NCBI RefSeq assembly: GCF_000745475.1
Contig: NZ_JQJJ01000008.1
Location: forward strand, 558,001-622,000
DNA: 64,000 nt
Origin: Allobosea sp. UNC402CLCol
GTDB lineage: Bacteria > Pseudomonadota > Alphaproteobacteria > Rhizobiales > Beijerinckiaceae
Direction of reading: 5' to 3'
The position numbers were made by a program, and so were the translations under genes. The notes beneath the pieces are model-generated. The model was not told the DNA's origin. It worked only from the letters and a program-made list of their open reading frames with translations, and searched no databases. Of this stretch, positions 5,023-44,441 are shown one piece after another. Each line of letters begins with the position of its first letter. Within the stretch, counting starts at the first letter, position 1.

Positions 5023-6231
5023 ATGACCGCCACCGAAGGAAACCCCGCCGATAGTGGCTGGACCGAACCGCGCGCGACCGCGCTCCTCGTGCTCGCCGAC
5101 GGCACGGTGCTGGAAGGCTTCGGCCTCGGCGCCGTGGGCGAGGCGCCGGGCGAAGTCTGCTTCAACACCGCGATGACCGGCTATCAGGAAATCCTGACCG
5201 ATCCCTCCTATGCGGGGCAGATCGTCACCTTCACCTTCCCGCATGTCGGCAATGTCGGCGTGAACGAGGAAGACACCGAGACGGTGAACGCCGCCGCCTC
5301 CTCCGGCGTGCGCGGCTGCGTGCTCCATGCCGCGATCACCCAGCCCTCGAACTGGCGCGCGAACCGGCATTTCGACGCCTGGCTCAAGGCCCGCAACATC
5401 GTCGGCATCTGCGGCGTCGACACCCGCGCGCTGACCGCGCTGATCCGCGACAACGGCATGCCCAACGCCATCCTCGCCCATAGCCCGGACGGCGTCTTCG
5501 ACATCGAGCGGCTGAAGAAGCAGGCGGCGGAGCTGCCCTCGATGGCAGGCCTCGACCTTGTCCCGCTCGTCACCGCCGCCCAGCGCTATGACTGGGACGA
5601 GACGCCCTGGGTCTGGCCCGCCGGCTATGGCAAGCGCGAGACCACGAACTACAAGGTCGTCGCCATCGACTACGGCGTGAAGCGCAACATCCTGCGCCTG
5701 CTCGCCAAGGCCGGCTGCGACGTCACGGTCGTGCCCTCGACTGCAAAGGCCGAGGACATCCTCGCCCTGAACCCAGACGGCATCTTCCTCTCCAACGGCC
5801 CGGGCGACCCGGCCGCAACCGGCGAATACGCCGTGCCGGTCATCAAGGAACTGCTCGACCGGAAGGTCCCGACCTTCGGCATCTGCCTGGGACACCAGAT
5901 GATGGCGCTCGCCATCGGCGGCCAGACGATGAAGATGAAGCAGGGCCACCACGGCGCCAACCACCCGGTGCAGGACAAGACCACCGGCAAGGTCGAGATC
6001 GTCTCGATGAATCACGGCTTCGCCGTCGATCCGGCGACGCTGCCGGCCAACGCGATCGAGACCCATGTCTCGCTCTTCGACGGCTCGAACAGCGGCATCG
6101 CGCTCACCGACCGCCCGGCCTTCAGCGTCCAGCACCACCCCGAGGCTTCGCCCGGCCCGCAGGACAGCCACTACCTCTTCAACCGCTTCGTCGAGCTGAT
6201 GGCGGCGGAGAAGGGCAAGAAGGCGGCCTGA
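5023..6231 (+). CDS. carA: Carbamoyl-phosphate synthase small subunit (glutaminase)
   Basis: CarA hydrolyses glutamine and passes ammonia to CarB to make carbamoyl phosphate for arginine and pyrimidine synthesis. The 402-residue length is normal. The N-terminal CPSase small-subunit domain (residues about 20-155) is followed by a class I glutamine amidotransferase domain. Its nucleophile Cys288 lies in FGICLGHQMM, and the HxE pair, His372 and Glu374, lies in QHHPEASPGP. carB lies about 11 kb away on the same strand; separate car genes are usual in Hyphomicrobiales. The gene is divergent from the YqeY-family gene. Confidence 0.98.
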   Translation: MTATEGNPADSGWTEPRATALLVLADGTVLEGFGLGAVGEAPGEVCFNTAMTGYQEILTDPSYAGQIVTFTFPHVGNVGVNEEDTETVNAAASSGVRGCVLHAAITQPSNWRANRHFDAWLKARNIVGICGVDTRALTALIRDNGMPNAILAHSPDGVFDIERLKKQAAELPSMAGLDLVPLVTAAQRYDWDETPWVWPAGYGKRETTNYKVVAIDYGVKRNILRLLAKAGCDVTVVPSTAKAEDILALNPDGIFLSNGPGDPAATGEYAVPVIKELLDRKVPTFGICLGHQMMALAIGGQTMKMKQGHHGANHPVQDKTTGKVEIVSMNHGFAVDPATLPANAIETHVSLFDGSNSGIALTDRPAFSVQHHPEASPGPQDSHYLFNRFVELMAAEKGKKAA

Positions 6232-6259
6232 GGGCCGACCAGGACGACCGGAGGCAGGC

Positions 6260-6589
6260 ATGATCCACCAGTTGCGCATCTACGAGATCTTCGAGCGCAA
6301 CAAGGCGGCCTTCCATGCCCGCTTCCGCGACCACGCCGCCCGCATCATGGCGCGCCACGGCTTCCACATCGTGGCGATGTGGGAGACGGCGAGCGCCGGG
6401 CGCACCGAATTCGCCTATATCCTCGCCTGGCCGGATAGCGAGACGAAAACGAACGCCTGGGCGAGCTTCATGACCGATCCGGAATGGAGCGAGATCAAGC
6501 GCGTCACCCGGAACGAGCATGGCGACATGGTCGGCGCGATCGAGGACCGCATGATGAACCCGACCGACTACTCCCCGAAGCTCGGTTGA
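6260..6589 (+). CDS. NIPSNAP family protein
   Basis: A 109-residue protein begins MIHQLRIYEIFERNKAAFHA. The pattern of an opening beta strand, HARFRDHAARIMARHGF and a later WPD motif matches NIPSNAP-family alpha/beta-barrel dimers, whose cellular role in bacteria is poorly known. It follows carA by 28 bases and has a purine-rich ribosome site (ccGGAGGcag) nine bases ahead of its start, so it is probably co-transcribed with carA. No catalytic residues can be assigned. Confidence 0.85.
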   Translation: MIHQLRIYEIFERNKAAFHARFRDHAARIMARHGFHIVAMWETASAGRTEFAYILAWPDSETKTNAWASFMTDPEWSEIKRVTRNEHGDMVGAIEDRMMNPTDYSPKLG

Positions 6590-6715
6590 CAGCACCGCAC
6601 CCGCGCGCTTTAAGCAAAGCATGATCAGCCTGCTCGCCTTCCTTCACGGCTATTACGCCCCGCTCTCATAGAGGCGGTGGCATTCCCATGTTCAACCGCC
6701 GCGCTGGCGGTTGAA
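6586..6715 (+). promoter_or_regulatory. Candidate leader-peptide attenuator ahead of prephenate dehydrogenase
   Basis: A consensus -35, TTGACA (6586-6591), is followed after 17 bases by TTTAAG (6609-6614). The expected transcript start then falls on or next to the ATG at 6621, so the short ORF could be leaderless. Segment 0 (6660-6666) can pair with segment 1 (6670-6677, one bulge). Segment 1 (GGCGGT, 6673-6678) can pair with segment 2 (ACCGCC, 6695-6700). Segment 2 (6691-6700) pairs perfectly over 10 bp with segment 3 (6706-6715). The three pairings exclude one another in the trp-attenuator order. The final hairpin lacks a T-run, so the output could be Rho-dependent or act on translation. 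The logic is inference. Confidence 0.55.
6621..6671 (+). CDS. Candidate Tyr leader peptide (16 residues)
   Basis: A short ORF reads MISLLAFLHGYYAPLS and ends at TAG 6669-6671. Two adjacent Tyr codons at 6651-6656 sit 15-20 bases ahead of the first hairpin segment, where a stalled ribosome would mask segment 0. There is no Shine-Dalgarno sequence. The position relative to the promoter suggests a leaderless start, as known for trpL of Sinorhizobium meliloti. The next real gene encodes prephenate dehydrogenase, a tyrosine biosynthesis enzyme, which fits tyrosine sensing. No homolog is claimed. Confidence 0.5.
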   Translation: MISLLAFLHGYYAPLS

Positions 6716-6761
6716 TTCAGGCAGATCACCCGGCATCGCGGCCCACCACCGGACCAGAGCG

Positions 6762-7580
6762 ATGTCTTCCAGGATCAGAACCGTCTCCACCATCGGCATC
6801 ATGGGCTTCGGCGCCTTCGGCCGCCTGATGGCCCGCCATCTCCAGCCGCATTTCGCCTTGCGCGTCTGCGACCCCACCAGCGCGCCCGCAACCGATACGA
6901 GCGGCAAGGGCCTGCAGCCGGCGACCCCTGCCGAAGTCGCATCCTGCGACCTCGTCATCCTCGCCGTGCCCGTTCCGGCGATCCCCGAGGCGATCGCGGC
7001 TTTGCGCCCGCATCTCAAGGCCGGCGCCATCGTGCTCGATGTCGGCTCGGTCAAGATCGGCCCCGCCCGGGCGATGGAAGCCGCCCTGCCCGATGATGTC
7101 GAGATCATCGGCACGCATCCGCTCTTCGGCCCGCAGAGCGCTCGCAACGGGCTTGCCGGCCTCAAGATCGCGCTCTGCCCGATCCGTGGCCGCAGCACGC
7201 CGCGCATCGCCGCCTTCCTGCGCCATGTCCTCAAGCTGAAGGTCATCGTGACGACGGCCGACGCCCATGACCGCGAGGTCGCGATGGTGCAGGGCCTGAC
7301 CCATCTCATCGCCAAGATTCTGGTTCGCATGGAGCCGCTGCCGCGGACGATGACCACGGCGAGCTTCGACCTCCTGATGCAGGCGACCGAGATGGTCCGC
7401 TACGACGCGCCGAACGTCTTCATGGCGATCGAGCGCGCCAACCCGCACGCCAAGGCGGTGCGAGACCGCTTCTTCGCTCTGGCGGAGGAGATGCGGCTGT
7501 TCCTGGAGCATGGCCATGGCGAAGCGGCGCAAAAGACTCCCGCCCTGCCTCACAAGGTCGCAGAGGTCGTGCAGGCCTAG
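6762..7580 (+). CDS. Prephenate/arogenate dehydrogenase (TyrA family)
   Basis: This NAD(P)-dependent enzyme makes the tyrosine precursor from prephenate or arogenate. The protein of 272 residues starts MSSRIRTVSTIGIMGFGAFG, with a Rossmann GxGxFG-type loop. It contains the family motif GTHPLFGPQSA near residue 120 and the QGLTHLIAKIL helix near residue 185. I chose Met 6762 over the TTG at 6711, because the TTG lies inside the hairpin and adds residues unlike the family. There is no hisC or aroA neighbour, so it is a stand-alone gene. The candidate Tyr attenuator lies just upstream. Substrate preference cannot be read from the sequence. Confidence 0.9.
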   Translation: MSSRIRTVSTIGIMGFGAFGRLMARHLQPHFALRVCDPTSAPATDTSGKGLQPATPAEVASCDLVILAVPVPAIPEAIAALRPHLKAGAIVLDVGSVKIGPARAMEAALPDDVEIIGTHPLFGPQSARNGLAGLKIALCPIRGRSTPRIAAFLRHVLKLKVIVTTADAHDREVAMVQGLTHLIAKILVRMEPLPRTMTTASFDLLMQATEMVRYDAPNVFMAIERANPHAKAVRDRFFALAEEMRLFLEHGHGEAAQKTPALPHKVAEVVQA

Positions 7581-7630
7581 CCTTCGCGATCCTCAGCGAC
7601 GAGAATATCGGAAAGGCGAATGCTCCTGCG

Positions 7631-8056
7631 ATGACCGACAATCCCCTGCTCTACCCGGGCGCCGCCCATCCCGATCTGCGCGAGCCGATGATCGCCGACC
7701 TCGTCCGCACCTTCTACGAGCGGGCGCGTCTGGACGATGTGATCGGCCCGGTCTTCGCGGCGGCTGTGACGGATTGGGACGACCACATCGTCAAGATCAC
7801 TGATTTCTGGAGCGGCGTGATGCTGCGCACCGGCCGCTACAATGGCCGCCCGATGCGCCCGCATCTGATCCTGCCGCTCGAGGGCAAGCATTTCGACCGC
7901 TGGCTCGACCTGTTCGAGGCGACGGCAAGCGAGGTCTGCGCGCCCGACATCGCAGACGCCTTCATCATCCGGGCGCGGCGCATCGCCGACAGCTTCGAGA
8001 TGGCGCGCGCCAGCCAGCGCGGCGAATTCGCGGCACCGCGGCATAGTTTGCGGTGA
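7631..8056 (+). CDS. Group III truncated hemoglobin
   Basis: A 141-residue globin of the trHb3 type, predicted to bind heme and oxygen or nitric oxide in the cytoplasm. Family features are FYERARLDDVIGPVF near the N-terminus, a helix with KITDFWSGVMLRTGRYNG, then HLILPLEGKHFDRWLDLF, where the histidine-containing helix gives the proximal ligand region. The C-terminal helix reads ARRIADSFEMA. It starts 50 bases after the prephenate dehydrogenase gene on the same strand. The role is not shown by context. Confidence 0.9.
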   Translation: MTDNPLLYPGAAHPDLREPMIADLVRTFYERARLDDVIGPVFAAAVTDWDDHIVKITDFWSGVMLRTGRYNGRPMRPHLILPLEGKHFDRWLDLFEATASEVCAPDIADAFIIRARRIADSFEMARASQRGEFAAPRHSLR

Positions 8057-44119: not shown

Positions 44120-44441
44120 GCGGACCTGCCTGCTTTGCCTCAAGGAACCGTCACAGCCGGAACCTCATCGCCAAACGGTTTCGCGCCCGAGGGCGCAAGC
44201 GCGCTGTCGGACGTTGACCTCCGGGCTCATGGAAGCATGATGCGGCCCGGTCGGCGGATGTGGTTTCGGCGATGTCGGCGAAACGGATGGCGCTCTTAAA
44301 GCGGAAGAATGTGGCGAAAGTCAAGGTTGTGGGCGTTCGTGCCGTCACCGGCCACCTCTCGCTCATGGGAATAATGGCGTTCGGCCCCAGAATGGCCCTG
44401 ATCTGACGGCATCGCATCGCGCCCCCAATCGAGCCGAGCCC
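44120..44441. other. Divergent intergenic region without a recognised gene
   Basis: This is 322 bases between the divergent ffh and CAP-domain genes. I see no gene, RNA or clear repeat. It must hold the promoters of both flanking genes, but I could not pick convincing -35 and -10 elements. Confidence 0.4.

Follow-up and report, generated by a model that had tools for sequence, protein, structure and literature searches.

A candidate tyrosine-sensing leader-peptide attenuator upstream of tyrA in Bosea and related Alphaproteobacteria

We analyzed a 64,000-nucleotide stretch of the genome of Allobosea sp. UNC402CLCol (contig NZ_JQJJ01000008.1, positions 558,001 to 622,000; hereafter the window) and examined the region in front of its prephenate dehydrogenase gene, tyrA. 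The genus is referred to as Bosea below. This region contains a short leader open reading frame (ORF) with tandem Tyr codons, followed by RNA segments capable of mutually exclusive pairings. The leader, its Tyr codons, the alternative segments and their linkage to tyrosine genes are established through sequence comparison. We consider it likely that the element is a tyrosine-sensing, ribosome-mediated attenuator and that its output in Bosea is a relay of helices ending at the tyrA start codon. A first-pass annotation had proposed a leaderless Tyr leader peptide and a four-segment attenuator at this site. On direct reading, its promoter, ATG at 6621, 16-codon ORF, TAT TAC codons and segments 0 to 3 were exact in every coordinate. 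Segments 4 and 5, which lie downstream, are additions to that scheme.

Conservation of the leader and its placement

A close TyrA ortholog was found in 53 of 67 Bosea genomes with 67 to 100% identity (in two pieces in genome G030), and the other 14 had distant matches alone. The leader was located by TATTAC followed by CATCGCGGC upstream of tyrA and was present in all 53 genomes with the ortholog, one of them carrying an altered base right after the Tyr codons. Model scans showed that the element was absent from all 6 ortholog-less Bosea genomes listed in the family samples. In the alignment of the 53 Bosea sequences (A1), neither the start nor the Tyr codons varied, nor did much of segments 2 to 4. 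The leader ORF was 15 to 17 codons long throughout; gaps within it had a length of 3 exclusively, and 1- and 2-nucleotide (nt) gaps were common after its stop. The column entropy of the Tyr pair was 0.00, compared to 0.97 for the preceding leader codons. The first-pass proposal depended on close relatives keeping the Tyr codons and the pairings, and both were found to be kept, the two Tyr codons in 53/53 orthologs of the genus.

The leaderless placement is supported by promoter spacing. TTGAC started 34 to 36 nt upstream of the leader ATG in 53/53 Bosea sequences and 34 to 39 nt upstream in 93 of 97 other leaders. These 97 were the 112 non-Bosea loci described below minus 13 that were weak, false or leader-less (L184, L187-L191, L193-L196, L198, L236 and L237) and minus two with a start further upstream (L092 and L098); L246-L248 were read from an ATG 3 nt downstream. 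Shine-Dalgarno (SD)-like motifs ahead of the leader ATG were seen in 0/53 Bosea sequences and 11/99 elsewhere. From the conserved spacing, transcription is expected to start at the leader ATG, and the leader ORF of the window is probably leaderless, as the first-pass annotation had suggested. A generic scan of positions 5400 to 8000 found no sigma-70-like site and no T-run terminator, and the promoter call therefore rests on conservation. The -35 hexamer overlaps the stop codon of a NIPSNAP-family gene upstream.

Alternative pairings and the hairpin over the tyrA start

The stretch from 6657 to 6720 had a folding energy of -33.7 kcal/mol (z = -4.86), which none of 200 shuffles equaled. Its pairings, together with those of segments 4 and 5, form an OFF set (0:1, 2:3 and 4:5) and an ON set (1:2 and 3:4). 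On A1, 90.5% of the OFF-set cells were paired, compared to 30 to 59% after the arms were slid by 1 to 3 columns; for the ON set the values were 96.9% and 22 to 59%. Cells altered on both sides numbered 27 in the OFF set (10.4 in shuffles), all within three pairs, and 5 in the ON set, in one pair. The 0:1 helix had 91.8% of its cells paired, with C-G replaced by G-C in 10 sequences and by U-A in 5, and a G-C pair of 1:2 was replaced by A-U in 5 sequences. Across genera, an alignment of 45 sequences (A4) showed both-sided changes at 5 of the 8 pairs of 2:3, although this alignment was fitted to the model and is hence biased toward it. Judged by a footprint spacing taken from the coordinates, the exclusive pairings are spaced for selection by ribosome position.

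In Bosea, segment 3 is followed by a near-invariant CCGRCATCGCGG, complementary to the tyrA start GCGATGYC. The column pair 126:163 of helix 4:5 was G-C in 28, G-U in 12 and A-U in 12 of the 53 sequences and unpaired in 1, the purine change often being matched by the partner. Unconstrained RNAalifold on the Bosea alignment paired segment 3 with segment 4. RNAalifold alone was rejected as a judge; it preferred 3:4 to 2:3 with almost no covariation (-0.17), and each pairing was therefore counted separately. In other genera, segment 4 often lies opposite the SD site with differing sequences, and 3:4 is formed, for example, by GTCGGCGG/CCGCCGAC in L095 and GCCGGCGG/CCGCCGGC in L116.

Covariation was assessed in 23 lineages, some of the same genus, each represented by one sequence. 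The energy of the duplex that a segment forms with its native partner was set against its energies with partners taken from the other lineages, over 20,000 permutations. The own-partner excess was -2.56 kcal/mol for 3:4 and -4.27 kcal/mol for 4:5, both with p = 5e-5, the permutation floor, whereas the control 3:5 gave -0.14 (p = 0.37); these p values are inexact because the lineages are related. In single-sequence tests, the stretch that includes 4:5 folded better than its shuffles at p < 0.05 in 26 of 51 sequences. These tests included L183 and L185, which were omitted from the 23-lineage covariation and from the accessibility calculations given below (the hairpin finder failed for L185). Pairing of the SD site was 0.83, compared to 0.63 once the upstream part was shuffled (44 sequences).

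The first-pass annotation had named the missing T-run after the last hairpin as its weak point, and both the generic scan and the 53 leaders indicate that the absence is real in Bosea: the longest T run past segment 3 was 4 in one leader and 1 to 3 in the other 52. The U-run terminator that a trp-type attenuator has as its last hairpin is thus lacking in Bosea. A likely answer lies in helix 4:5, which covers the tyrA start codon and tips the balance toward translational control in this genus.

Table 1. Features of the leader region and tyrA in the window
Feature	Position	Strand	Description
Promoter	6586..6614	+	TTGACA 6586-6591, 17-nt spacer, TTTAAG 6609-6614
Leader ORF	6621..6671	+	16 codons, MISLLAFLHGYYAPLS then stop; ATG 6621, 6 nt past the -10 hexamer
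Sensing codons, tandem Tyr TAT TAC	6651..6656	+	Invariant in A1
Segment 0, CCGCTCT	6660..6666	+	5' arm of the 0:1 helix
Segment 1	6670..6681	+	AGAGGCGGT at 6670-6678; partner of 0 or 2
Segment 2, TTCAACCGCC	6691..6700	+	Partner of 1 or 3
Segment 3 plus preceding loop	6701..6715	+	GGCGGTTGAA at 6706-6715; 3:2 uses 6706-6715, 3:4 uses 6701-6710
Segment 4, CCGGCATCGC	6730..6739	+	Partner of 3 or of the tyrA start region
Segment 5, GCGATGTC	6759..6766	+	Includes the tyrA start codon 6762-6764; 8-bp 4:5 hairpin
tyrA	6762..7580	+	Prephenate/arogenate dehydrogenase, 272 aa; Pfam PDH_N, E = 7.9e-20

The tyrA product matched the prephenate dehydrogenase models of NCBIfam, every one under its curated cut-off, and the nearest solved structures in the Protein Data Bank (PDB) were those named 'Prephenate dehydrogenase 1' (E = 6e-19), which we take to be plant proteins. 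ATG 6762 was preferred as the tyrA start over an upstream TTG at 6711 because the frame of the spacer ahead of tyrA varies. A second short ORF from ATG 6688 was rejected, its frame not being kept (insertions at columns 78-79 of A1). Among 27 named records carrying the same protein, 19 were titled Bosea, and the rest were Rhizobiales/Hyphomicrobiales bacteria, one Boseaceae, one Methylobacterium and one Sneathiellales.

Recurrence before tyrosine genes in other taxa

We searched for the element with three covariance models. R1, trained on Bosea only, gave a single strong match in the genome of the window itself, and no such leader was present at the Bosea tyrS locus (L229). The canonical tyrA of genome G000 (L231) has an aminotransferase-like ORF, recognized by eye, directly upstream. 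Among 397 genomes of the family, R1 matched 76, of which 40 were Bosea; the other 36 belonged to 8 further genera and gave 38 matches. The 33 full-length matches outside Bosea all lay before a tyrosine gene (26 tyrA and 7 tyrS); the 5 partial ones (L124-L128) were rejected as false and removed before tabulation. One tyrS member was confirmed by NCBIfam TIGR00234. R2 was built from 11 members with a T-run, Bosea excluded; in the order sample its matches fell in 15 of 397 genomes, and each was inspected (9 tyrS, 4 tyrA and 2 GNAT). It also found the window element at 6621-6718 with E = 0.001 in a search of 55 chosen sources (190 kb of chosen loci). In the class sample, R3 matched 26 of 385 genomes, and all 28 matches were inspected; in the family sample it matched 132 of 394, from which 30 + 19 loci were inspected.

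After removal of 13 duplicates, the collection held 112 non-Bosea loci: 44 before tyrA, 39 before tyrS, 3 before trpS, 4 before GNAT proteins, 2 before an S4 protein and 20 without a target call. The last group comprised 5 Trp-Tyr-Phe leaders before GNAT, 3 aromatic leaders in front of an unassigned gene (L192, L197 and L243) and 12 weak or false loci. A Tyr codon was present in 82 of the 83 tyrA and tyrS leaders (43/44 and 39/39, respectively; L092 and L098 counted from an upstream ATG). Over 94 leaders with all kinds of target, the first Tyr codon was TAT in 88 and TAC in 6, and the next codon was TAC in 29, TAT in 26, TTT in 27 and another in 12; TAT and TAC were thus exchanged synonymously at Tyr codons in other genera. 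Leaders of like architecture before trpS carry Trp codons (WW in L186, W in L241), and at the third trpS locus, L184, no leader was seen. A YY leader precedes a GNAT protein in L234. A record titled Sneathiellales (L169) carries the YY leader MNTQLTLFVSFYYPPLK followed by a stop (read from the DNA) before a TyrA with 54% identity (R3 E = 3.9e-10). The recurrence before tyrA and tyrS in further genera and families speaks for the first-pass reading, and by sequence the family extends far past tyrA, beyond the scope of that reading.

In L104, L110, L130, L132 and L135 the same layout is followed by a T-run, a feature of tyrS and some tyrA members, and SD hairpins were also predicted in many T-run members. 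L181 carries TTTTTT after 2:3 (about 1570-1660) together with a start-codon hairpin 4:5 and is an intermediate between termination and translational outputs. Bosea probably controls translation, and the relatives with a T-run probably terminate transcription at the same 2:3 hairpin.

Several loci showed further variation. Trp-Tyr-Phe leaders with a terminator-like hairpin lie before GNAT acetyltransferases in L171, L175, L177, L178, L180 (leader at 1501 in match orientation) and L249, and short leaders with Tyr-Phe-Trp codons and a terminator-like hairpin lie before GNAT acetyltransferases in L134 and L143. The GNAT target was called by Pfam for L175 and L177 and by eye for L171, L178 and L180. 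Such leaders look suited to sensing the three aromatic amino acids together. In L176 and L179, a WYF leader (1501 in match orientation) precedes a small protein matching the S4-like C-terminal region of TyrS. L174 has a 25-codon YY leader with a GTG start (1501), and the prephenate dehydrogenase that follows it is 312 aa long and of the two-domain Pfam type. The leader of L192 (1501 in match orientation) carries Tyr-Tyr-Tyr-Trp-Phe codons. In L099, L101, L106 and L119, the tyrA frame has a long additional segment after about residue 45, giving proteins of 326 to 344 aa, with similar repeat-like peptides; this segment looks like an in-frame inserted repeat.

Proposed mechanism, alternatives and known systems

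The element shares with leader-peptide attenuators a short upstream ORF whose codons specify the amino acid made by the downstream pathway. We infer the direction of the response, the translational output in Bosea and the kinetic order of events as follows, with a ribosome footprint rule used to place the covered RNA. Transcription would begin at or beside the leader ATG, and the leader would be translated without an SD site. When charged tRNA-Tyr is scarce, the ribosome would stall when the second Tyr codon enters the A site and cover the RNA to about 6665, that is, segment 0, leaving segment 1 to pair with segment 2. Segment 3 would then be free to capture segment 4 as it emerges, so that the tyrA start (segment 5) stays open and TyrA is made. 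With ample tyrosine, the ribosome would reach the stop and cover the RNA to about 6680, that is, segment 1; segment 2 would pair with segment 3, and segment 4 would be left to close the tyrA start. In the relatives with a T-run, 2:3 would also end transcription. The first-pass annotation had compared the logic to that of the trp attenuator. The tyrosine-sensing part of that comparison is supported, but 2:3 in Bosea is probably no intrinsic terminator. The Bosea element would work like a trp-type transcription attenuator and is not classed as one because it has no U-run terminator.

Some results weigh against this mechanism. On A1, the OFF-set pairs with double changes (3, with 2.9 in shuffles) and the extra pair types (9, with 10.2 in shuffles) showed no excess. 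Helices 0:1 (p = 0.25) and 1:2 (p = 0.18) were without cross-lineage covariation, foreign partners pairing almost equally well, and within Bosea they had few compensatory changes; of the exclusive pairings in the first-pass scheme, 2:3 is thus the one that covaries across genera. The 3:4 pairs of segment 3 showed no variation within Bosea, and the single-sequence shuffle test of 3:4 fell below p = 0.05 for 6 of 51 sequences, none of them among the 10 from Bosea. Equilibrium folding of the 53 Bosea sequences placed 4:5 at 0.97 to 0.98 unconstrained and at 0.91 with 1:2 enforced, with the AUG unpaired at 0.03 or less. The accessibility of the SD/start region was nearly equal in the two states, both in Bosea (ON 0.38 vs OFF 0.36; ON higher in 45/53) and outside it (ON 0.36 vs OFF 0.33; ON higher in 26/39). 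As to the family, R2 missed genome G000 at E ≤ 0.01 in the whole-genome search of the order, and R3 produced false matches at L237 (E = 4e-6, a gene end with a terminator) and L236 (E = 1.6e-5, inside a long ORF). The tyrA leader of L108 lacks any Tyr codon, and the YY tandem was broken in 10/44 tyrA and 18/39 tyrS leaders (kept in 34/44 and 21/39), with F, S, H, R or P as the second codon or D as the first (L244). Since 4:5 is closed at equilibrium in every state, the relay must be kinetic and act during transcription; before segment 5 is transcribed, segment 3 of Bosea pairs with downstream RNA at 0.73.

The same equilibrium result is consistent with another output, in which a Tyr attenuator in Bosea acts solely by termination at 2:3, through Rho or a terminator without a T-run, and 4:5 is incidental. 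The relatives named above with this layout and a T-run, the detection of the Bosea element by R2, a model from T-run members, and the combination of TTTTTT with a start-codon hairpin in L181 also agree with it. We regard termination alone as unlikely, since the T runs past segment 3 are so short in Bosea, segment 4 (columns 123-134) is as conserved as segments 2 and 3 (entropy 0.06 and 0.10, respectively), and 4:5 covaries across lineages.

A leader RNA or peptide acting mainly in trans, comparable to rnTrpL/peTrpL of Sinorhizobium, would fit the short leaderless-type ORF, which resembles trpL (PMC7298713). However, the peptide ahead of the Tyr codons is not conserved, and tyrA or tyrS lies in cis at 83/112 loci and at 33/33 full-length R1 matches, which makes action in trans very improbable. 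Just as improbable is an RNA that senses tyrosine, tRNA or a protein directly while the ORF goes unread: the strong sequence conservation of segments 2 to 4 would suit such a sensor, whereas the frame-preserving indels, the synonymous exchange of Tyr codons, the Trp codons before trpS and the lack of an Rfam family match argue against it. The false model matches (L124-L128, L236 and L237) indicate that parts of the pattern arise elsewhere, but a chance meeting of hairpins and an ORF was rejected given the 53/53 conservation and the position of 33/33 full-length R1 matches before tyrA or tyrS.

Leader-peptide attenuators are known for Trp, His, Leu/Ile/Val, Thr and Phe; control by tyrosine is otherwise known from TyrR repression. 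Tyr T-boxes respond to the charging of tRNA-Tyr, sensing the tRNA directly without a leader peptide. Corynebacterium glutamicum, the source of one system compared below, belongs to another phylum. Against Rfam 15, positions 6560-6800 were without a match up to E = 1, as were ten relatives at gathering scores; far from the element, Rfam matched an ffh sRNA at 44176-44228 on the minus strand of the window (E = 1.5e-8). Searches of the open-access literature found no Tyr-responsive leader peptide. The element thus resembles a tyrosine sensor of a type that neither those searches nor Rfam brought up.

The nearest published systems are compared here as excerpts of their sources describe them. In the leaderless trpL of Sinorhizobium meliloti, the RNA starts at the AUG of a 14-codon upstream ORF (PMC7298713, PMC10117765). 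Like the present element, it is alphaproteobacterial and has consecutive sense codons and alternative structures before a biosynthetic gene, but it combines Trp, trpE and a transcription terminator, whereas here Tyr codons precede tyrA or tyrS, in Bosea with a start-codon hairpin and no T-run. Attenuation has been predicted for Cys as well: uORFC-8-2, before cysS in Rhodobacterales, shares the tandem sense codons upstream of the aminoacyl-tRNA synthetase gene for the same amino acid, likewise in Alphaproteobacteria, and has an intrinsic terminator comparable to that of the tyrS members, and both systems are predictions (PMC8632094). It differs in amino acid and gene, and its description there includes neither a tyrA-like target nor a second start-codon hairpin. 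The AroR leader of C. glutamicum, which precedes aroF of the aromatic pathway, also includes a Tyr codon (Phe-Tyr-Phe), but the gene is different and, according to a review, the response is to Phe and unaffected by Tyr availability (PMC11802643). Song et al. (2005) listed in their Table 7 putative terminator/antiterminator structures ahead of operons with tyrA, among them hisHb>tyrA of Agrobacterium tumefaciens; these come from a web list and concern another operon, and the excerpted main text contains neither 'leader peptide' nor 'tyrosine codons' (PMC1173090). The attenuation hypothesis for Escherichia coli aroF(-tyrA), attributed to Camakaris et al. (1980), likewise concerns an operon with tyrA, but in E. 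coli, and no Tyr leader peptide is mentioned in that excerpt (PMC8632094). T-box regulation for Tyr, which is also RNA-level control, and candidate attenuators before trpS in Streptomyces are on record (PMC1262725), and the excerpt of PMC2965389 mentions neither tyrS nor tyrA.

A broader reading, which we favor slightly, is that these elements form a leaderless aromatic attenuator family of Alphaproteobacteria whose codons match the target (Tyr with tyrA/tyrS, Trp with trpS, Trp-Tyr-Phe with GNAT or S4 proteins). A five-helix relay, 0:1/1:2/2:3/3:4/4:5, would lead to the start codon or SD site of the target, its output shifting from a terminator plus SD hairpin to the purely translational form of Bosea, and the family would include the first Tyr-responsive leader-peptide attenuator. 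A Tyr-specific leader before tyrA and tyrS would fill a gap among leader-peptide attenuators and would give many alphaproteobacteria a concrete hypothesis for tyrosine homeostasis. It would also provide a natural set of examples of a single architecture that switched both its output, termination or translational control, and its amino acid.

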